Of a stretch of 64,000 bases of DNA, positions 27,854-38,345 are shown one piece after another. The position numbers and the translations under genes are program-made. Below the pieces are notes generated by a model. It searched no databases and was not told the DNA's origin. It saw nothing but the letters and a program-made list of their open reading frames with translations. How positions within the stretch are numbered: the first letter of the stretch is position 1; every line of letters begins with the position of its first letter. The stretch is from Pseudanabaena frigida (GTDB lineage: Bacteria > Cyanobacteriota > Cyanobacteriia > Pseudanabaenales > Pseudanabaenaceae). Location: contig QBML01000017.1 of assembly GCA_003242085.1 (NCBI GenBank), positions 49,030 to 113,029 of the forward strand. Reading direction: 5' to 3'.

Positions 27854-27990
27854 TTAGCTTGATTAAAACTATTCTAATTAGTTTTATTTTACACTTTGAT
27901 TTGTCTAGTTAGATAGCTGTTTATTTGGAATAGCCTATTTTTTTATCGTGATAAAATCAAGTAACAGGCACAAGCTTTACTGACGTAACT

Positions 27991-28566
27991 ATGGACGCTT
28001 TAACCATCAGCCTAGAATCTGTAATCGATCTCACCGATGAGCAGTTCTTTCAACTTTGCCGCAAGAATAGCGACCTCAGATTCGAGCGCAATGCTCAAGG
28101 AGATATTACAGTCATGGCTCCAGAGGGTGGCGAGACAGGGATGCGTAGTGCTAGCATCCCCACCGATTTAGGAATATAGAATCGTAAAGCTAAGCTAGGC
28201 TTTGCTTTCGGTTCATCCACAGGTTTTAAGCTTCCTAATGGTAGCGATCGCTCTCCTGATGCTTCATGGATTTTGAAGGAAAGATGGGAAGCTTTAACAC
28301 CAGAACAGCGATCGCGATTTGCTCCCATTTGTCCAGACTTTGTAATTGAATTGATGTCTCCTAGTGATAACTTGAAGGTCACCCAAGCGAAGATGCAGGA
28401 ATATCAAGATAATGGCGCAAGGCTAGGCTGGCTGATTAATCGCAAAGACCGTGAAGTGGAAGTTTATCGAATTGACAAGCCTAAGGAAGTTTTACAAAAT
28501 CCGAGTTCTCTCTCAGGGGAAAATGTGTTGCCTGAGTTTGTTTTGAGCCTTGCGGAAATTTGGTAA
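27991..28566 (+). pseudogene. Uma2-family gene with one in-frame nonsense codon
   Basis: The frame is continuous from 27991 to 28566 except for TAG at 28177-28179, after the residues ASIPTDLGI. The next codons, NRKAKLGF then FGSSTGFKLPNGSDRSPDASW, are the standard Uma2 core. Uma2 proteins normally have Trp at the stop position (TGG changed to TAG). Everything downstream, including the late LGWLINRKDREVEVYR, is well preserved. It is either a very recent pseudogene, a sequencing error or a site of readthrough. Confidence 0.85.
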
Positions 28567-28570
28567 TTAG

Positions 28571-28627
28571 CCTATACCGACAGACAGTAGCGCACGCGCA
28601 GCGTGCGCTACTGTCTGTCGGTATAGG
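28571..28627. repeat. Perfect long hairpin after the uma2 pseudogene
   Basis: Two 26-base arms beginning CCTATACCGACAGACAGTAG pair perfectly around a 5-base loop, with CGCACGCGCAGCGTGCG at the centre. It begins 5 bases after the uma2 stop. It is similar in scale to, but different in sequence from, family A. Confidence 0.8.
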
Positions 28628-28697
28628 CTTCATGAGTACTTATCAAATGTGAGAAAATAATGCATAATTGCTAGAAATATGCAGTCTAGAGGCAAAA

Positions 28698-29111
28698 ATG
28701 CAGGAACAAGATTGGGGTAATGAGGAATTGTGGATCGTAACCGCTAGCGATCGCCAAGAATCACAATCTGGGCAAAAGACAGTTGCATTCAGTCCCCCTA
28801 ATCCTACACGCTCAGGAGCAACAGTATCAGGTGAAGCGATCAAAGAAAGTCGGGTGAAAGCGGAGAACTTGGCGGCGCAGATGTCTCAGTTTGTGAGGGT
28901 GATTGGTCGAGTCTTTGCTGATGCTCAAAAACAAATCGATCCCCAAGCAGGGTTACAACTGGATGAGATCAAATTGGCGGTTGATATTTCTGCTAAGGGT
29001 GAAATTAAGCTCTTGGGTACGGGGATTGAAACCTCTGGAAAAGGGGCGATCGAGTTAAAATTTAAACGAGCAGAGTTACCTAAAAAATCTCAGCCTTCGG
29101 AGTCTGTTTAA
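28698..29111 (+). CDS. Trypco1 (trypsin-co-occurring domain 1) protein
   Basis: This 137-residue protein starts at ATG 28698 with AGAGG 6 bases before it; a longer start at TTG 28668 is less likely. The C-terminal half matches the Trypco1/CU044_2847 pattern: AAQMSQFVRVIGRVFADAQ, GLQLDEIKLAVDISAKGEI and a closing IELKFKR. The domain was described next to trypsin- and caspase-type proteases in predicted bacterial immune and cell-death systems. The caspase gene follows after 4 bases, so the two form a tight operon. The N-terminal third is low-complexity and may be a linker. Confidence 0.75.
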   Translation: MQEQDWGNEELWIVTASDRQESQSGQKTVAFSPPNPTRSGATVSGEAIKESRVKAENLAAQMSQFVRVIGRVFADAQKQIDPQAGLQLDEIKLAVDISAKGEIKLLGTGIETSGKGAIELKFKRAELPKKSQPSESV

Positions 29112-29115
29112 AGGT

Positions 29116-30591
29116 ATGGCAAGAAATTTCGCAGTGGTCGTTGGGATTAATAATTACAAAAAAATCCAACCTCTAAAGTATGCCAAAAGCGATGCTGAGA
29201 GGATGTGTGATTTTTTCACGCAGGATTTGCAGGTTAGTCCTGAAAATTTGTACTTTTTTTCTGACGATTCTCCATGCGATGTTTGGGGTAGGGAAACTCA
29301 GCCAACCTATAGCAATCTTGAAACTTTTTTTACGGAAAGTTTTGAAACTCCATTCCTAGAGTCAGGTGATACGCTGTGGTTCTACTTTAGTGGACATGGA
29401 ATGCCCTATGAAGGCAGAGATTGTCTTTTGCCAATTGATTTCAGTCTCAGCATTGCTTCCAAGACGACAATTCCCCTGTCAGGTATCACAGATCGTTTGC
29501 GGCGGAGTGGGGCGGACAATGTGGTGATGTTGATCGATGCTTGTCGCAGTGATGGTGCGAAGAATGTGGGTATGGGCATCGGTGAGGAGAAGCAACAGGG
29601 TGTAATCACGTTCTTTTCTTGCAGTCCATCGCAGGTTTCCTATGAGATTGATGAGATTGGGCAAGGGGCTTTTACAAATGTGTTGCTGGAGGCGTTGCGG
29701 ATTCAGGGAGAGGAGAATTGTGCGACGGTGGAGCGTTTTGCTAATTATTTGAAATTTCGCGTACCAAAGTTGACGCAAAGGTACAAGAATTATGTACAGA
29801 CTCCATACGTTGTGATTGAGCCTGAAACTAAGTTGCATTACATTCTGTTGCCGAAGTTTGCTAATCTCACGGATATTGCTTTACTTAGAGAAAATGCGCT
29901 TGAGGCTGAAAATGAGGAAGATTATGATTTAGCTTTTCAATTGTGGCTACGGGTAAATGTCTCGGCTAGTGGTACGGATATTAAGGCTATTAAAGCTTTT
30001 CAGCGTTTGGCTAATAAGCAATCTGCTCCTAATTCTCAATTAAAAGAAAGAGTTAGCGATCGGGGTGGTGAAAACAATTCCTCAGTTGTTAGTCTAAATC
30101 CTGTGGCATTAGTGAGTGCTAAGGGTATTGACTATCGTGAATTGGAAAAATTGCTGAAGGCGAAAGAATGGGGAAAAGCGGATCGGGAAACTAATAAATT
30201 GATGGTGAGTGCGGTGGGAAAAGATTTTGGGCAGTGGCTATCTAGTGACGACTTACTCAAGACTTCTTGTGATGATTTATTAGCGATTGATCGCTTGTGG
30301 ATAAGTTATAGCGATGGACTTTATGGGTTTAGTGTCCAGAAGCAAATTTATGTCGAGTGTGGTGGTAGATTAGATTTTGGTAATCCAATCTCTGAGACTT
30401 GGAATATATTTTGTCATAATGTAGCATGGCAAAATGAAGATAGTTACGTGTCTTATCCTGAACCATTTTTTCTTGAAGATTTTATGCTTATTAATGGACA
30501 TCTGCCATTTTTGGCGAATAGTGTATTAGTGAACGGCATAGTGACCGTTAATGCGTACTTCTTTTCTCTTATTGCGACTTGTGAAGCATAA
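29116..30591 (+). CDS. Caspase-family (p20) peptidase fused to a GUN4 domain
   Basis: This 491-residue protein has an N-terminal caspase p20 domain (residues 3-230) with an intact dyad: H94 in YFSGHG and C143 in LIDACRS. A linker of about 90 residues follows. A GUN4 domain runs from about residue 338 (IDYRELEKLLKAKEWGKAD, then DDLLAIDRLWISYSDGLYGF) to about 480. GUN4 in cyanobacteria binds porphyrins and activates Mg-chelatase, so this fusion could couple tetrapyrrole status to proteolysis. The last part, after SVQKQIYVECGG, is more divergent than the core. It is translated with the Trypco1 protein. Confidence 0.88.
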   Translation: MARNFAVVVGINNYKKIQPLKYAKSDAERMCDFFTQDLQVSPENLYFFSDDSPCDVWGRETQPTYSNLETFFTESFETPFLESGDTLWFYFSGHGMPYEGRDCLLPIDFSLSIASKTTIPLSGITDRLRRSGADNVVMLIDACRSDGAKNVGMGIGEEKQQGVITFFSCSPSQVSYEIDEIGQGAFTNVLLEALRIQGEENCATVERFANYLKFRVPKLTQRYKNYVQTPYVVIEPETKLHYILLPKFANLTDIALLRENALEAENEEDYDLAFQLWLRVNVSASGTDIKAIKAFQRLANKQSAPNSQLKERVSDRGGENNSSVVSLNPVALVSAKGIDYRELEKLLKAKEWGKADRETNKLMVSAVGKDFGQWLSSDDLLKTSCDDLLAIDRLWISYSDGLYGFSVQKQIYVECGGRLDFGNPISETWNIFCHNVAWQNEDSYVSYPEPFFLEDFMLINGHLPFLANSVLVNGIVTVNAYFFSLIATCEA

Positions 30592-30696
30592 ACCATAAAG
30601 CTTTTACACTCCGATTAAGTTTAGTAAGCCGACAATTTTCTACAGCATAATCAGTACTCTAGCATTTCGTTGCCTGTCACCACCGATTCTCCTGTA

Positions 30697-30762
30697 GGGG
30701 CAGAGCATTCCCACCATAATCTATAAATTCTGCAATCATCTCAAATTGGGAAAGCTCTGCCC
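30697..30762. repeat. Inverted repeat, GGGGCAGAGC type
   Basis: GGGGCAGAGCATTCCCA and TGGGAAAGCTCTGCCC pair with one mismatch across a 33-base AT-rich loop. Confidence 0.6.
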
Positions 30763-30864
30763 TTAACCTCCAACATTCACCGACAATTCCTAAACCTCCC
30801 TAAGCGATCAACATTTACCGAAAATCTCCAAACCGCAGGGATAAGCGATCAATAAAAGCAAAGA

Positions 30865-30930
30865 GGGTAGAGCATTTGCGAATGAAGATTGTAGCGGAGA
30901 GTTGGAGATATTGGCGCAAATGCTCTACCC
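30865..30930. repeat. Inverted repeat, GGGTAGAGCATTTGCG type
   Basis: GGGTAGAGCATTTGCG and its perfect complement CGCAAATGCTCTACCC bracket a 34-base spacer. It shares the AGAGCATT block and spacing with the repeat at 30697, so the two are likely relatives. Confidence 0.65.
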
Positions 30931-30971
30931 CTACATATTTTCTTTTTTCTTTAAAATGCAAAACTTAAGAA

Positions 30972-31232
30972 ATGAAGCTGACTCCATACTTTGAAAAAAT
31001 AGTCCTCAACAAACGTTTAGAGATTAACTTAGATTGGTGCGATCGCGTAATTGCAAATCCCCTAAAGACAGAATCACAGCCAGATGGCAGAATTCGCCAT
31101 TGGGGTATAATCGCTGAAGCCGATAACCGAGTTTTGAGGGTTGTCACATTAGATGATGGCGAAACAATTCACAACGCATTCTTCGATCGCAATTTTCGCA
31201 AACAATTAGAAAGAGAAGGAAGACAAATATGA
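30972..31232 (+). CDS. DUF4258-like small protein (putative toxin)
   Basis: This 86-residue protein has the pattern ANPLKTESQPDGRIRHWG ... NRVLRVVTLDDG, which resembles DUF4258 proteins that have a RelE-like fold. The stop overlaps the next start (ATGA), pairing it with a DUF2283 protein, an arrangement seen repeatedly in cyanobacteria and presumed toxin-antitoxin-like. Activity is not established. Confidence 0.6.
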   Translation: MKLTPYFEKIVLNKRLEINLDWCDRVIANPLKTESQPDGRIRHWGIIAEADNRVLRVVTLDDGETIHNAFFDRNFRKQLEREGRQI

Positions 31233-31447
31233 AAATCCACTACTTTGCCGATACAGACACACTCTTTATTGAACTTAGCGATCGCCCTAGTGTTAGAACT
31301 GAAGAAATTAATGATCTAGTGACCGTAGACTTTGATAGAGAAGAAACATTAGTGGGCATTACCATTGAATCAGCGAAAGCTCAAGTCGATCTCAACTCAA
31401 TTAATATTTTGACTAACCTAGAGCCTAAAACATTGCAACCTGTATGA
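31229..31447 (+). CDS. DUF2283-family protein (putative antitoxin)
   Basis: This 72-residue protein has the DUF2283 pattern KIHYFADTDTLFIELSDRPSV, TEEINDLVTVDFDRE and VGITIESA. DUF2283 proteins are often the partner of small DUF4258 proteins. The start overlaps the upstream stop by 4 bases. The family's role is not experimentally settled. Confidence 0.85.
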   Translation: MKIHYFADTDTLFIELSDRPSVRTEEINDLVTVDFDREETLVGITIESAKAQVDLNSINILTNLEPKTLQPV

Positions 31448-31471
31448 TAAATCTTGAACCAAAGATAACCT

Positions 31472-32029
31472 ATGAATCAAAGACTTTTTATCGCGTTGTT
31501 ACCACCTGACACTATTCAAGATGAAGTTAGGCAAATTCAATATGACTTGCGCGATCGCTACAATACCCAAGCCACCCTCAAATCTCCGCCTCACATTACG
31601 CTAATTCCTCCCTTTGAGTTGTCAAGCGATCGCCTAGAACCATTACAAATAGAACTAGAGAAATTTGCCAAAACGCGATCGCCTTTTACCATTAACCTCT
31701 CAGGATTTGCTGCGTTCCCTCCTCGCGTTATTTATCTCAATGTCTTGCCAAATCCGATTCTGCAAAATTTGTATGTAGATATCGCGGCGACCCTTGCAAA
31801 TAATCTAGACATTCACTATCCCCATGCTTCTAGACCGTTTGTGCCACATATGACTGTTGGGTTTCGAGACTTAACACCTGAGAACTTTGAACTAGCTTGG
31901 GCAGAGTTTCGCGATCACCAAATTAATTTTGACTTTGAAGCGATCGAACTGACTCTATTGGAACATGATGAGAAAAAATGGAATGTTCTCTCAAAATTTA
32001 CTTTGCAATCTCTAGAAGGATCGCTCTAA
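31472..32029 (+). CDS. thpR: 2'-5' RNA ligase family protein (ThpR-like)
   Basis: This 185-residue protein has the two H-x-T motifs of the 2H phosphoesterase superfamily: PHITLIPP (about residue 43) and PHMTVGF. The RLFIALLPP start and final ELTLLEHDEKKW are typical of RNA 2',3'-cyclic phosphodiesterases. It may hydrolyse cyclic phosphodiester ends or act on nucleotides. It ends tail-to-tail with the Uma2 gene, overlapping it by 4 bases. Confidence 0.85.
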   Translation: MNQRLFIALLPPDTIQDEVRQIQYDLRDRYNTQATLKSPPHITLIPPFELSSDRLEPLQIELEKFAKTRSPFTINLSGFAAFPPRVIYLNVLPNPILQNLYVDIAATLANNLDIHYPHASRPFVPHMTVGFRDLTPENFELAWAEFRDHQINFDFEAIELTLLEHDEKKWNVLSKFTLQSLEGSL

Positions 32030-36609: not shown

Positions 36610-36828
36610 ATGGATACACTGAAGCTAGACAATATCCAAAAGGAAATCGCCGATCTGCCTCCTGATGCACAACAAATTATTTTCGATCTGGTGGATATTC
36701 TAAAAAAACGTTATTTCCCAAATCCACAAAAAGTTCCACAAACAACAGTAAATGACTGGTCAGATTTCATTGGTTGTATGGATGCAGAATCAGATTTATC
36801 AAGAAATTACAAAACATATCTAATATGA
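36610..36828 (+). CDS. Antitoxin-like small protein, translationally coupled to reverse transcriptase
   Basis: This 72-residue protein (IQKEIADLPPDAQQIIFDLVDILKKR, then WSDFIGCMDAESDLSRNYKTYL) looks like the antitoxins that precede PIN toxins in cyanobacteria, but ends shortly after the toxin-binding tail would begin. The stop TGA overlaps the ATG of the reverse transcriptase (ATGA at 36825-36828). It may be a real partner of the RT or a truncated antitoxin left by an insertion. Confidence 0.55.
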   Translation: MDTLKLDNIQKEIADLPPDAQQIIFDLVDILKKRYFPNPQKVPQTTVNDWSDFIGCMDAESDLSRNYKTYLI

Positions 36829-38345
36829 GTCGTAGTCCTAAAGAGCACTTTCAAAGAACAAAAGAACTTGCTGAATCACTATCTACATCAGCTATATACG
36901 ATTGGTTAGTGACTAAAGGTTATTTCCCAGAAGCTTATGTCTTACCGCCGTGTTTTGCAGTGACTAAGTATCCAGTTTTTGGAAAAGTTTATTTTCCATA
37001 TACAAAGACAAAGTTTAAACCAGAAATTTCTGAATTCCAACAAGTTCACTTCCCTAAAACTGAGTTAACAGATAGAACATTTGGAATAATCGATCCAAAA
37101 ATCCATTCAGACATTGCATTTACAATTTCTGACAATTGGAGTCAGGTGATAGATTGTCTTTTTAATAAAGATAATCAGGTTTGTTCTTATAGTTTTCCTA
37201 TTCCTTTAAATCATAAGATGGTAGGAGAAATTGGTGAACTTAGAAGTGGAAGAATGATCTATGAGTTTATTGAAATGGCTGAAAATGATGTGGCTGCCAT
37301 TGCTTTTCGATATAAATATCTTATCAAAACAGATATAAAAAATTTTTACCCATCAATTTATACCCATAGCATTCCTTGGGCTCTACATGACAAAGCTATT
37401 ATTAGGCAACCAAATAAAAGAAACGATTATGATTTTATTGGAAATCGTTTAGATAAGCTTTTTCAAAATGCTAATGATGGTTGTACTAATGGAATCCCAA
37501 TAGGCCCTGTTGTATCAGACTTAATTTCTGAAATGGTTCTATCAGGAGTAGATAGAGAACTATCAAAATCAATCAATCAAGATGTAGTTGTAGTTAGATT
37601 TAAAGATGATTATCGCATTCTTGCTAAAAGTGAGTCTAGTGGGCGATCAGTTGTCAAAGCTCTTCAATCAGCCTTAAAAAGTTATCGTCTTGAACTAAAC
37701 GATGGAAAAACCGCGAGTTATCGTCTACCAAGTGGTCTTTTTAGAAACTGGGTATCAGAGTATCACAGTGCTAATCCCCATCCAAAATCAACCTATGATT
37801 TCAAGCGATTCAAAGAAGTATACTTATCAGTTATAGAAATTGACAAAAAGAATTCTGGTTGTGGTGTTATAGATAGATTCTTAGCAGATATTATAACTAA
37901 ACAGGGCAAGATCCGAATTAAAAAATTAGACAATAGATCACTAATTAAGACAATAAGTTTATTACTTATGCTTGCAGACTTACGGACAAAATCATTTCCA
38001 AAAATCCTAGCTATTATTGAAGCTATTATAAAATCTCCTTTTGGTTCAAAGCACATAGATTTGATATTTGAACATCTTGAAGAATTTCTTGTTGAGCTAA
38101 AGTCAGAAGAAATGAATAACAGATATTTAATTACTTGGATTATCTACTTTATTAGAGCAAATAGTCTTGAAAGTAAACTTAAAGATAGTAGTTATCAATT
38201 TGCAGATCCAATAGTATGTGCAACTTACAATGATGAATTTACTGCATTTAGTGAACATGAAGATTTCGAGATTTTCTCTAGTGTAAAAACAATTGCAAAA
38301 AAAATCACAATGTTAGAACATCTTGATGTTTTCAAACCTCAGTAG
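36825..38345 (+). CDS. Reverse transcriptase of the Abi/DRT-like type
   Basis: This 506-residue protein has a reverse transcriptase core. Motif A is KTDIKNFYPSIYTHSIPWAL with D170. The motif-4-like block is CTNGIPIGPVVSDLISEM. The catalytic pair is D261-D262 in RFKDDYRI, where the usual YADD is replaced. A helix-rich C-terminal region of about 200 residues has no similarity I recognise and fits the alpha-helical C-terminal domain of Abi and DRT phage-defence RTs. There are no group-II-intron maturase domains and no visible retron RNA. The gene is AT-richer than its neighbours and lacks HIP1, suggesting transfer. The class within the unknown-group RTs cannot be assigned here. Confidence 0.82.
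   Translation: MSRSPKEHFQRTKELAESLSTSAIYDWLVTKGYFPEAYVLPPCFAVTKYPVFGKVYFPYTKTKFKPEISEFQQVHFPKTELTDRTFGIIDPKIHSDIAFTISDNWSQVIDCLFNKDNQVCSYSFPIPLNHKMVGEIGELRSGRMIYEFIEMAENDVAAIAFRYKYLIKTDIKNFYPSIYTHSIPWALHDKAIIRQPNKRNDYDFIGNRLDKLFQNANDGCTNGIPIGPVVSDLISEMVLSGVDRELSKSINQDVVVVRFKDDYRILAKSESSGRSVVKALQSALKSYRLELNDGKTASYRLPSGLFRNWVSEYHSANPHPKSTYDFKRFKEVYLSVIEIDKKNSGCGVIDRFLADIITKQGKIRIKKLDNRSLIKTISLLLMLADLRTKSFPKILAIIEAIIKSPFGSKHIDLIFEHLEEFLVELKSEEMNNRYLITWIIYFIRANSLESKLKDSSYQFADPIVCATYNDEFTAFSEHEDFEIFSSVKTIAKKITMLEHLDVFKPQ

Follow-up and report, generated by a model that had tools for sequence, protein, structure and literature searches.

The window, the 64,000-nucleotide stretch of Pseudanabaena frigida DNA analysed here, encodes a Pepco–caspase unit with an exchangeable GUN4 end, the tail of which probably belongs to a hypervariable class and occupies the site where GUN4 proteins contact tetrapyrroles. 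We favour the reading, with a probability of roughly 0.55, that the unit is a recognition-triggered cell-death protease and not a tetrapyrrole switch. The evidence comes from the gene pair itself, from its counterparts across cyanobacteria, from the exchange of C-terminal domains between sister loci, and from the random-looking DNA that ends GUN4 genes of this class.

A Pepco–caspase gene pair

The preliminary description had reported two open reading frames of 137 and 491 residues separated by 4 bases, and both were recovered as placed there. The Pepco ORF runs from an ATG start at 28698 to 29111 (in the ORF list it begins earlier, with a TTG at 28668), and the caspase gene follows on the plus strand with a gap of 4 bases (29111 to 29116). 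The features of the pair are as follows.

28698..29111, plus strand: Pepco-domain protein of 137 residues, the constant partner (PF24393, 91.9 bits; AlphaFold mean pLDDT 68.7)
29116..30591, plus strand: caspase–connector–GUN4 protein of 491 residues (PF00656 and PF05419; AlphaFold mean pLDDT 78.9)
29116..29850, plus strand: caspase domain, residues 1–245 (PF00656; Foldseek)
29395..29397, plus strand: codon of the catalytic His94 (H in 46/46 aligned rows)
29542..29544, plus strand: codon of the catalytic Cys143 (C in 46/46 aligned rows)
29860..30021, plus strand: helical connector, residues 249–302 (columns conserved in at least 75% of rows; AlphaFold helices)
30115..30507, plus strand: GUN4 body up to GHLP, residues 334–464, the exchangeable module (PF05419; identity to relative P0003)
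30508..30558, plus strand: tail segment at the LxNxLR position, variable in the class and here common to relatives P0002 and P0030 (class statistics; tail identity)
30559..30591, plus strand: constant 3′ DNA element, a degenerate copy, through the stop codon (core 30564–30585 compared with the form of the genus)
30592..30625, plus strand: non-coding stretch past the stop codon, like that after GUN4 genes in related genomes (by eye, against loci L386, L389 and L393)

Profile searches matched the larger protein to the caspase family (PF00656, 85.3 bits, residues 3–234) and, in agreement with the preliminary description, to GUN4 (PF05419, 105.6 bits, residues 334–467). The best Foldseek matches of the caspase domain were the MALT1 paracaspase and metacaspases (best E 3.5e-11). 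The catalytic dyad, H94 and C143, was likewise correctly read: both residues are at these positions and are present in all 46 aligned rows, which comprise the window protein and 45 caspase ORFs of more than 300 residues from Pepco loci, one of them the window's own copy. An active orthocaspase is predicted from this intact His-Cys dyad. The AlphaFold model of the 491-residue protein places connector helices at residues 251–266, 270–283 and 289–302, and the alignment shows that the helical connector behind the caspase is common to proteins with differing C-terminal ends. PADLOC matches were limited to a generic caspase model (68 bits) and, at 112 bits, the GUN4 end of PD-T4-6, and no Rfam family reached its gathering threshold at 27900–31500. 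Between a Uma2-like ORF and the Pepco gene lies a perfect inverted repeat with 28-base arms (28570–28628, found by eye), possibly a small mobile repeat.

The small protein had been described as Trypco1-like. It belongs instead to Pfam Pepco (PF24393, 91.9 bits against a curated cut-off of 27), and the Trypco1 profile (PF19493) gave no match to it at E ≤ 1; Trypco1 identity is rejected because the profile scores favour Pepco. Across 57 Pepco-family members the Trypco1 profile matched 27 at E ≤ 10, with a best value of 0.0011, and the likeness is thus a distant resemblance at most. The AlphaFold model of the Pepco protein, of modest confidence (pLDDT 68.7), yielded no match in the PDB at E ≤ 0.001 and contains a long helix at residues 55–79. 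The earlier view that no system of this composition had been characterised holds in part: as far as the sources were available, caspase–GUN4 fusions were already listed in PMC2853523 and PMC8283722, and we found no description of the Pepco domain by name, or of its pairing with a caspase, among the matches listed from the open-access literature.

The unit is conserved across cyanobacteria

Pepco was found in 46 of 386 sampled cyanobacterial genomes, with 61 matches, 60 of which were read with their surroundings (all but G155:C393). At 44 of these 60 loci a full-length caspase comes next on the same strand, in each case with an intact dyad; the remaining loci carry a short or broken caspase (4), none (8, one of them at a contig end) or another arrangement (4). 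Counting the four short ones, 37 of 48 downstream caspase ORFs begin within 15 bases of Pepco. The Pepco–caspase pairing is far above chance, and the neighbourhood survey suggested in the preliminary description thus found the gene pair conserved. The earlier interpretation is supported in so far as a small partner protein and an intact caspase form a conserved operon, of the constant/variable two-gene type that has been predicted for conflict systems; the tetrapyrrole switch that it attached to this operon is not supported. The source genome holds three copies of Pepco, and its second Pepco–caspase copy has an FGS end.

The four loci of other arrangement (L105, L107, L108 and L109) come from four genomes of the genus. 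In them Pepco and the first GUN4 half form one protein, and 67–91 bases on comes a second protein, which starts like Hpt and contains the other half of GUN4. The source genome's copy of this arrangement is at G000:C11:236498-238171. Half-length GUN4 matches ending at profile position 84–85 occur in 12 of the 13 genus genomes searched, and the split GUN4 may be functional.

C-terminal domains are exchanged on a constant core

The 44 full-length Pepco-linked caspases end in FGS (28), GUN4 (10), both (1) or something else (5); by reading, one of these last is DnaJ_C-like and others resemble membrane or NTPase ends. Among the P-numbered relatives, which were taken from the best 120 of 1162 matches, P0003 shares 96% identity with the window protein over the caspase and only 42% over GUN4, P0038 is 94% identical over the caspase but has a DnaJ_C end, and P0002 is 73% identical over the caspase and 90% over GUN4. 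At the matching locus L090 the Pepco protein is 97% identical to the window's; the DNA of the two loci is 90% identical over window positions 27977–30183, breaks inside GUN4 and resumes at 30637–30739. These comparisons show that C-terminal domains have been exchanged on a constant Pepco–caspase core. At locus L087 (G193:C55) the caspase ends in a DnaJ_C-like part, and behind it lies an orphan GUN4 fragment that carries the constant 3′ element; here the older module stayed in place after an exchange.

The FGS ends of sister Pepco–caspase loci display an RGGSW...CRSA pattern like that of targets of diversity-generating retroelements (DGRs), so that one constant core bears two kinds of diversified C-terminus. 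Since FGS sits at the same position as GUN4 and carries this DGR-like pattern, the two ends probably serve the same need for diverse recognition. The FGS ends at L056 and L064 have an Asn-rich variable region, which we interpret as resembling an unmutated DGR template.

The GUN4 tail begins at the tetrapyrrole-contact motif

As far as GHLP the GUN4 fold is conserved, and it matches GUN4 chains of known structure that bind tetrapyrroles. In the alignment, the motif LxNxLR of Synechocystis GUN4 directly follows GHLP; the tail of the window's class begins exactly there. The motif is intact in the stand-alone GUN4 of the source genome (L012, GHLP-LSNQLR) and absent from the window protein, which reads GHLP-FLANSV instead; none of 141 tail segments in the hypervariable class begins with it. 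According to the available part of PMC10156173, the Asn of LxNxLR is close to the bound bilin in Synechocystis GUN4, and a single substitution in the motif of the Chlamydomonas protein abolished bilin binding and left porphyrin binding in place.

Tetrapyrrole sensing was already proposed for GUN4 fusions in PMC7159879, as far as the accessible text goes, and the preliminary description had likewise envisaged a death effector switched by tetrapyrrole levels, naming conserved porphyrin-site residues as a test. At that site LxNxLR is missing, here as in the rest of the class, and at sister loci the GUN4 end is swapped for others. The switch loses its main support because the tail starts at the LxNxLR site and the motif is found in 0/141 segments. 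The window's GUN4 may nonetheless bind porphyrin, since the motif substitution spared porphyrin binding and the rest of the fold is conserved.

A constant DNA element ends the variable tails

Past GHLP, the tails of the listed non-FGS caspase–GUN4 relatives differ in sequence and length. Yet 59 of the 86 listed end in one of three ways (14, 26 and 19 proteins), with 27 unsorted, and by reading these three protein endings arise from a single conserved DNA end translated in each of its frames. This element has no stop in any of the three. A 21-nt stretch from it, allowing at most 2 mismatches, was found in 50 of 386 genomes and 25 of 142 genera, against 0 for the reversed control in every row shown. 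The survey gave 118 sites, 117 of which were read (G022:C1:480886 was left out), and 107 of these lie just 3′ of GUN4, with the GUN4 frame relative to the element distributed 37/34/36. The other 10 have no GUN4 match upstream, and several look like deletions. An inverted repeat after the element is weak (38 of 107 copies versus 16.75 in shuffles).

Copies lacking an upstream GUN4 include those at L131, L135, L155, L157 and L188; at L135 and L155, pieces of kinase-like genes are joined to the tail in a deletion-like manner. Doubled constant elements occur at L126 and L183, 70 and 51 bases apart, and at L126 a short G/T-rich piece separates an older-looking from a newer-looking copy.

An exact-match scan of species genomes returned at least 115 stretches and at least 80 element loci, all cyanobacterial by title among the matches listed, and 82 of the 87 element sites in them follow GUN4. 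The element class is wider than the Pepco–caspase system: among the matches listed, Pepco is present at one of the 80 named loci, a caspase profile of the window's type occurs in 8 of 82 GUN4 ORFs, and many other element-bearing GUN4 proteins, by reading, start like kinases or TIR proteins.

Within the genus of the window, 14 element sites were found in 10 of 14 genomes, and all 14 are GUN4 tails; their frames (7/5/2) are too few to call uniform. The source genome has one such site, on an NTPase-like GUN4 protein whose segment is nearly free of C. The element core of the window itself (30564–30585) differs from the genus form at 4 of 22 positions and was missed by the 2-mismatch search, and among the Pepco-linked GUN4 caspases only 2 of 11, L063 and L080, carry the element at 2 mismatches or fewer. 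The window's tail is 81–85% identical to those of P0002 and P0030. Since its element has 4/22 mismatches and its tail is common to these two relatives, the window's tail is probably not varying now; by descent it would belong to the hypervariable class, but it looks inactive or frozen. No second copy of the tail that could act as a donor is present in the source genome, and an in-genome donor is rejected for this tail.

The tail segments are random-looking DNA with an open frame

The segments between GHLP and the element were collected in two sets from overlapping genomes: 87 distinct segments were kept from the 107 GUN4-linked sites of the survey, and 71 of 82 from the exact-match scan, 54 of them absent from the first set, for a pooled total of 141. 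Both sets exclude duplicates, doubled elements, cases in which the GUN4 profile match ended early, and segments that are no longer than 12 nt or exceed 150 nt. The 141 segments range from 24 to 136 nt, their lengths modulo 3 are uniform (46/45/50), and they are G/T-rich (A 0.18, C 0.11, G 0.39, T 0.33), an excess that stops at both segment borders. Codon position hardly affects composition in the tails (χ2 15.5, 6 df, against 659.9 in the GUN4 body; first set). Pairs of segments are identical at 0.299 and 0.305, where 0.299 is expected, and no shared template is visible; within ten genomes, in samples of 3 to 6, pair identity scatters about the expected level (0.19–0.37).

In-frame stop codons are nearly absent (5 of 2760 codons, compared with 127 of 2714 and 157 of 2669 in the other two frames), and an open frame through the tail is therefore kept. 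Composition predicts stops at 5.7% per codon (first set), and the chance of so few in-frame stops under a simple composition model is about 4e-62. Taken together, these statistics show that the tails of the class are random-looking DNA with selection for an open frame. As to tempo, the proteins at L125 and L148 have bodies 97% identical and unrelated tails, and three other pairs (L118/L145, L115/L117 and L134/L169) have bodies 94–97% identical and tails that are identical or nearly so. Because bodies this similar can bear the same or almost the same segment, tail replacement is episodic at most.

Possible origin of the tails

An ordinary DGR is an improbable source of the GUN4 tails, and of the explanations considered here we give it the least credence. 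A DGR with an undiscovered template repeat would fit the DGR-like pattern of FGS ends in the same family and the position of the element, which closes the variable segment on its 3′ side as a DGR priming site would. Against it, the tails have neither a fixed length nor a shared template repeat: pair identity is at the random level, and segments within genome G284 alone measure 36, 65, 70, 43, 136 and 25 nt. By eye, no template repeat could be recognised among the 10 element sites that lack GUN4, and a reverse transcriptase match (RVT_1, E ≤ 0.001) was obtained in 9 of the 13 element-bearing genomes searched and in none of the other 4, some of the genomes being drafts.

Six kilobases downstream of the pair, the window carries a gene for a UG14-type defence-associated reverse transcriptase (36774–38345, plus strand; PADLOC, 699 bits). 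As a general writer of tails this enzyme is rejected, since matches above 600 bits occur in only 2 of 386 genomes; any match at E ≤ 0.001 was found in 87 of 386, the next best scoring 182.5 bits. Suitable writing chemistry does exist in bacteria: the accessible part of PMC13275509 describes defence-associated reverse transcriptases that make semi-random DNA in a template-free manner. We put forward, tentatively and at somewhat less than even odds, that cyanobacteria own a second, non-DGR diversity system resembling V(D)J junctions. A template-free enzyme would write G/T-rich random DNA of random length between the GHLP codons and the element open in three frames, and open frames would be selected. 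Carried by kinases, TIR-like proteins and caspases, the products would serve as a diverse repertoire for sensing antigens, on what was once a tetrapyrrole-binding pocket.

A proposed recognition-triggered protease and its alternatives

The random-looking and highly variable tails of the class suggest that the GUN4 end recognises something foreign. Such a protease could work as follows. The tail and the GUN4 surface would bind a ligand derived from an invader or from damage, and caspase molecules would thereby be brought together through the connector. Pepco would either keep the protease inactive or act as a scaffold for its assembly, and the cell would be killed or arrested once the caspase became active. 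The alternative that we rate highest, though still as unlikely, is a regulatory or homeostatic protease, in which the caspase acts on a protein of the host at a place or time determined by the C-terminal modules. Module exchange occurs in signalling proteins too, which would suit this idea, and a homeostatic role has been put forward for cyanobacterial orthocaspases (PMC7517822, in the part available). Hypervariable and DGR-like ends would however be unexpected for a fixed host target, and many GUN4 proteins with the element begin, by reading, in a kinase-, TIR- or caspase-like manner. Slightly less probable again is the tetrapyrrole-switched protease, in which caspase activity would be switched on or off by a porphyrin or bilin on GUN4 and chlorophyll stress thus be coupled to proteolysis. 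The fold conserved to GHLP, its match to tetrapyrrole-binding chains and the porphyrin binding kept by the Chlamydomonas mutant (PMC10156173, available part) all speak for it, but the contact motif has given way to a random-looking segment throughout the class, and a switch of this kind leaves unexplained why FGS or other ends replace GUN4 on the same core.

It is also quite improbable that the tails are functionless gene ends, relaxed or in decay, their variation being drift. Variable length and sequence, the deletion-like cases among the 10/117 element sites with no GUN4 upstream, and the degenerate element of the window would all be expected of decay. The scarcity of stops in the reading frame alone and the conservation of the 3′ element in 50/386 genomes would not.

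If the tails are indeed a recognition repertoire, as a recognition-triggered death protease would have it, GUN4 fusions would no longer be sensors of chlorophyll stress but a second family of diversified receptors beside the DGR lectins, and the receptors described here would share one predicted executioner, the Pepco–caspase pair. This raises the question of what writes DNA of random length, for which no template is visible, at a fixed site in a coding gene. A constant end open in three frames would be an elegant answer to random joining; among the matches listed from the open-access literature we found nothing alike, and no description of GUN4 tails of this kind. A GUN4-domain/kinase gene is listed beside bicarbonate transporter and glycosyltransferase genes for RE2, a phage-resistant substrain of Nostoc 7120 (PMC10811720, available part), and as a link to phage it is a lead, no more.

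Comparison with known systems

The pair resembles the EACC1 two-gene systems (PMC7159879, as far as available) in joining a small constant 5′ gene to a 3′ gene whose product starts with a caspase and has highly variable C-terminal domains. The 5′ partner of EACC1 systems is, however, described as an actinobacterial protein with one conserved transmembrane helix, whereas here it is Pepco, and the window's caspase scores 62.2 bits with the EACC1-associated caspase model, below its cut-off of 140. EACC2/TRADD-N systems (PMC8195603, in part) also combine a constant caspase component with a variable C-terminus, but in those systems the caspase comes after another domain and is paired with TRADD-N, while the window's caspase starts at residue 3 and is partnered by Pepco. 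Trypco1 and Trypco2 (PMC7159879, same portion) are, like Pepco, small proteins beside a protease, and the Pepco family shows a weak profile similarity to Trypco1; they adjoin trypsin, unlike the window's small protein, which adjoins a caspase and matches the Pepco profile.

The caspase–GUN4 orthocaspases of PMC2853523 and PMC8283722 contain the same fusion, with neither a Pepco partner nor variable tails mentioned in the portions available. Relative to canonical GUN4, represented by Synechocystis and by L012 of the source genome, the window protein has the same body up to GHLP and a replacement of the LxNxLR segment. The DGR-diversified lectin-type (FGS/CLec) proteins of cyanobacteria (PMC7517822 and PMC10907252, in the parts available) likewise place a variable C-terminus on effector-type proteins. 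Unlike those lectins, the GUN4 tails vary in length, show no template and end in an element open in three frames.
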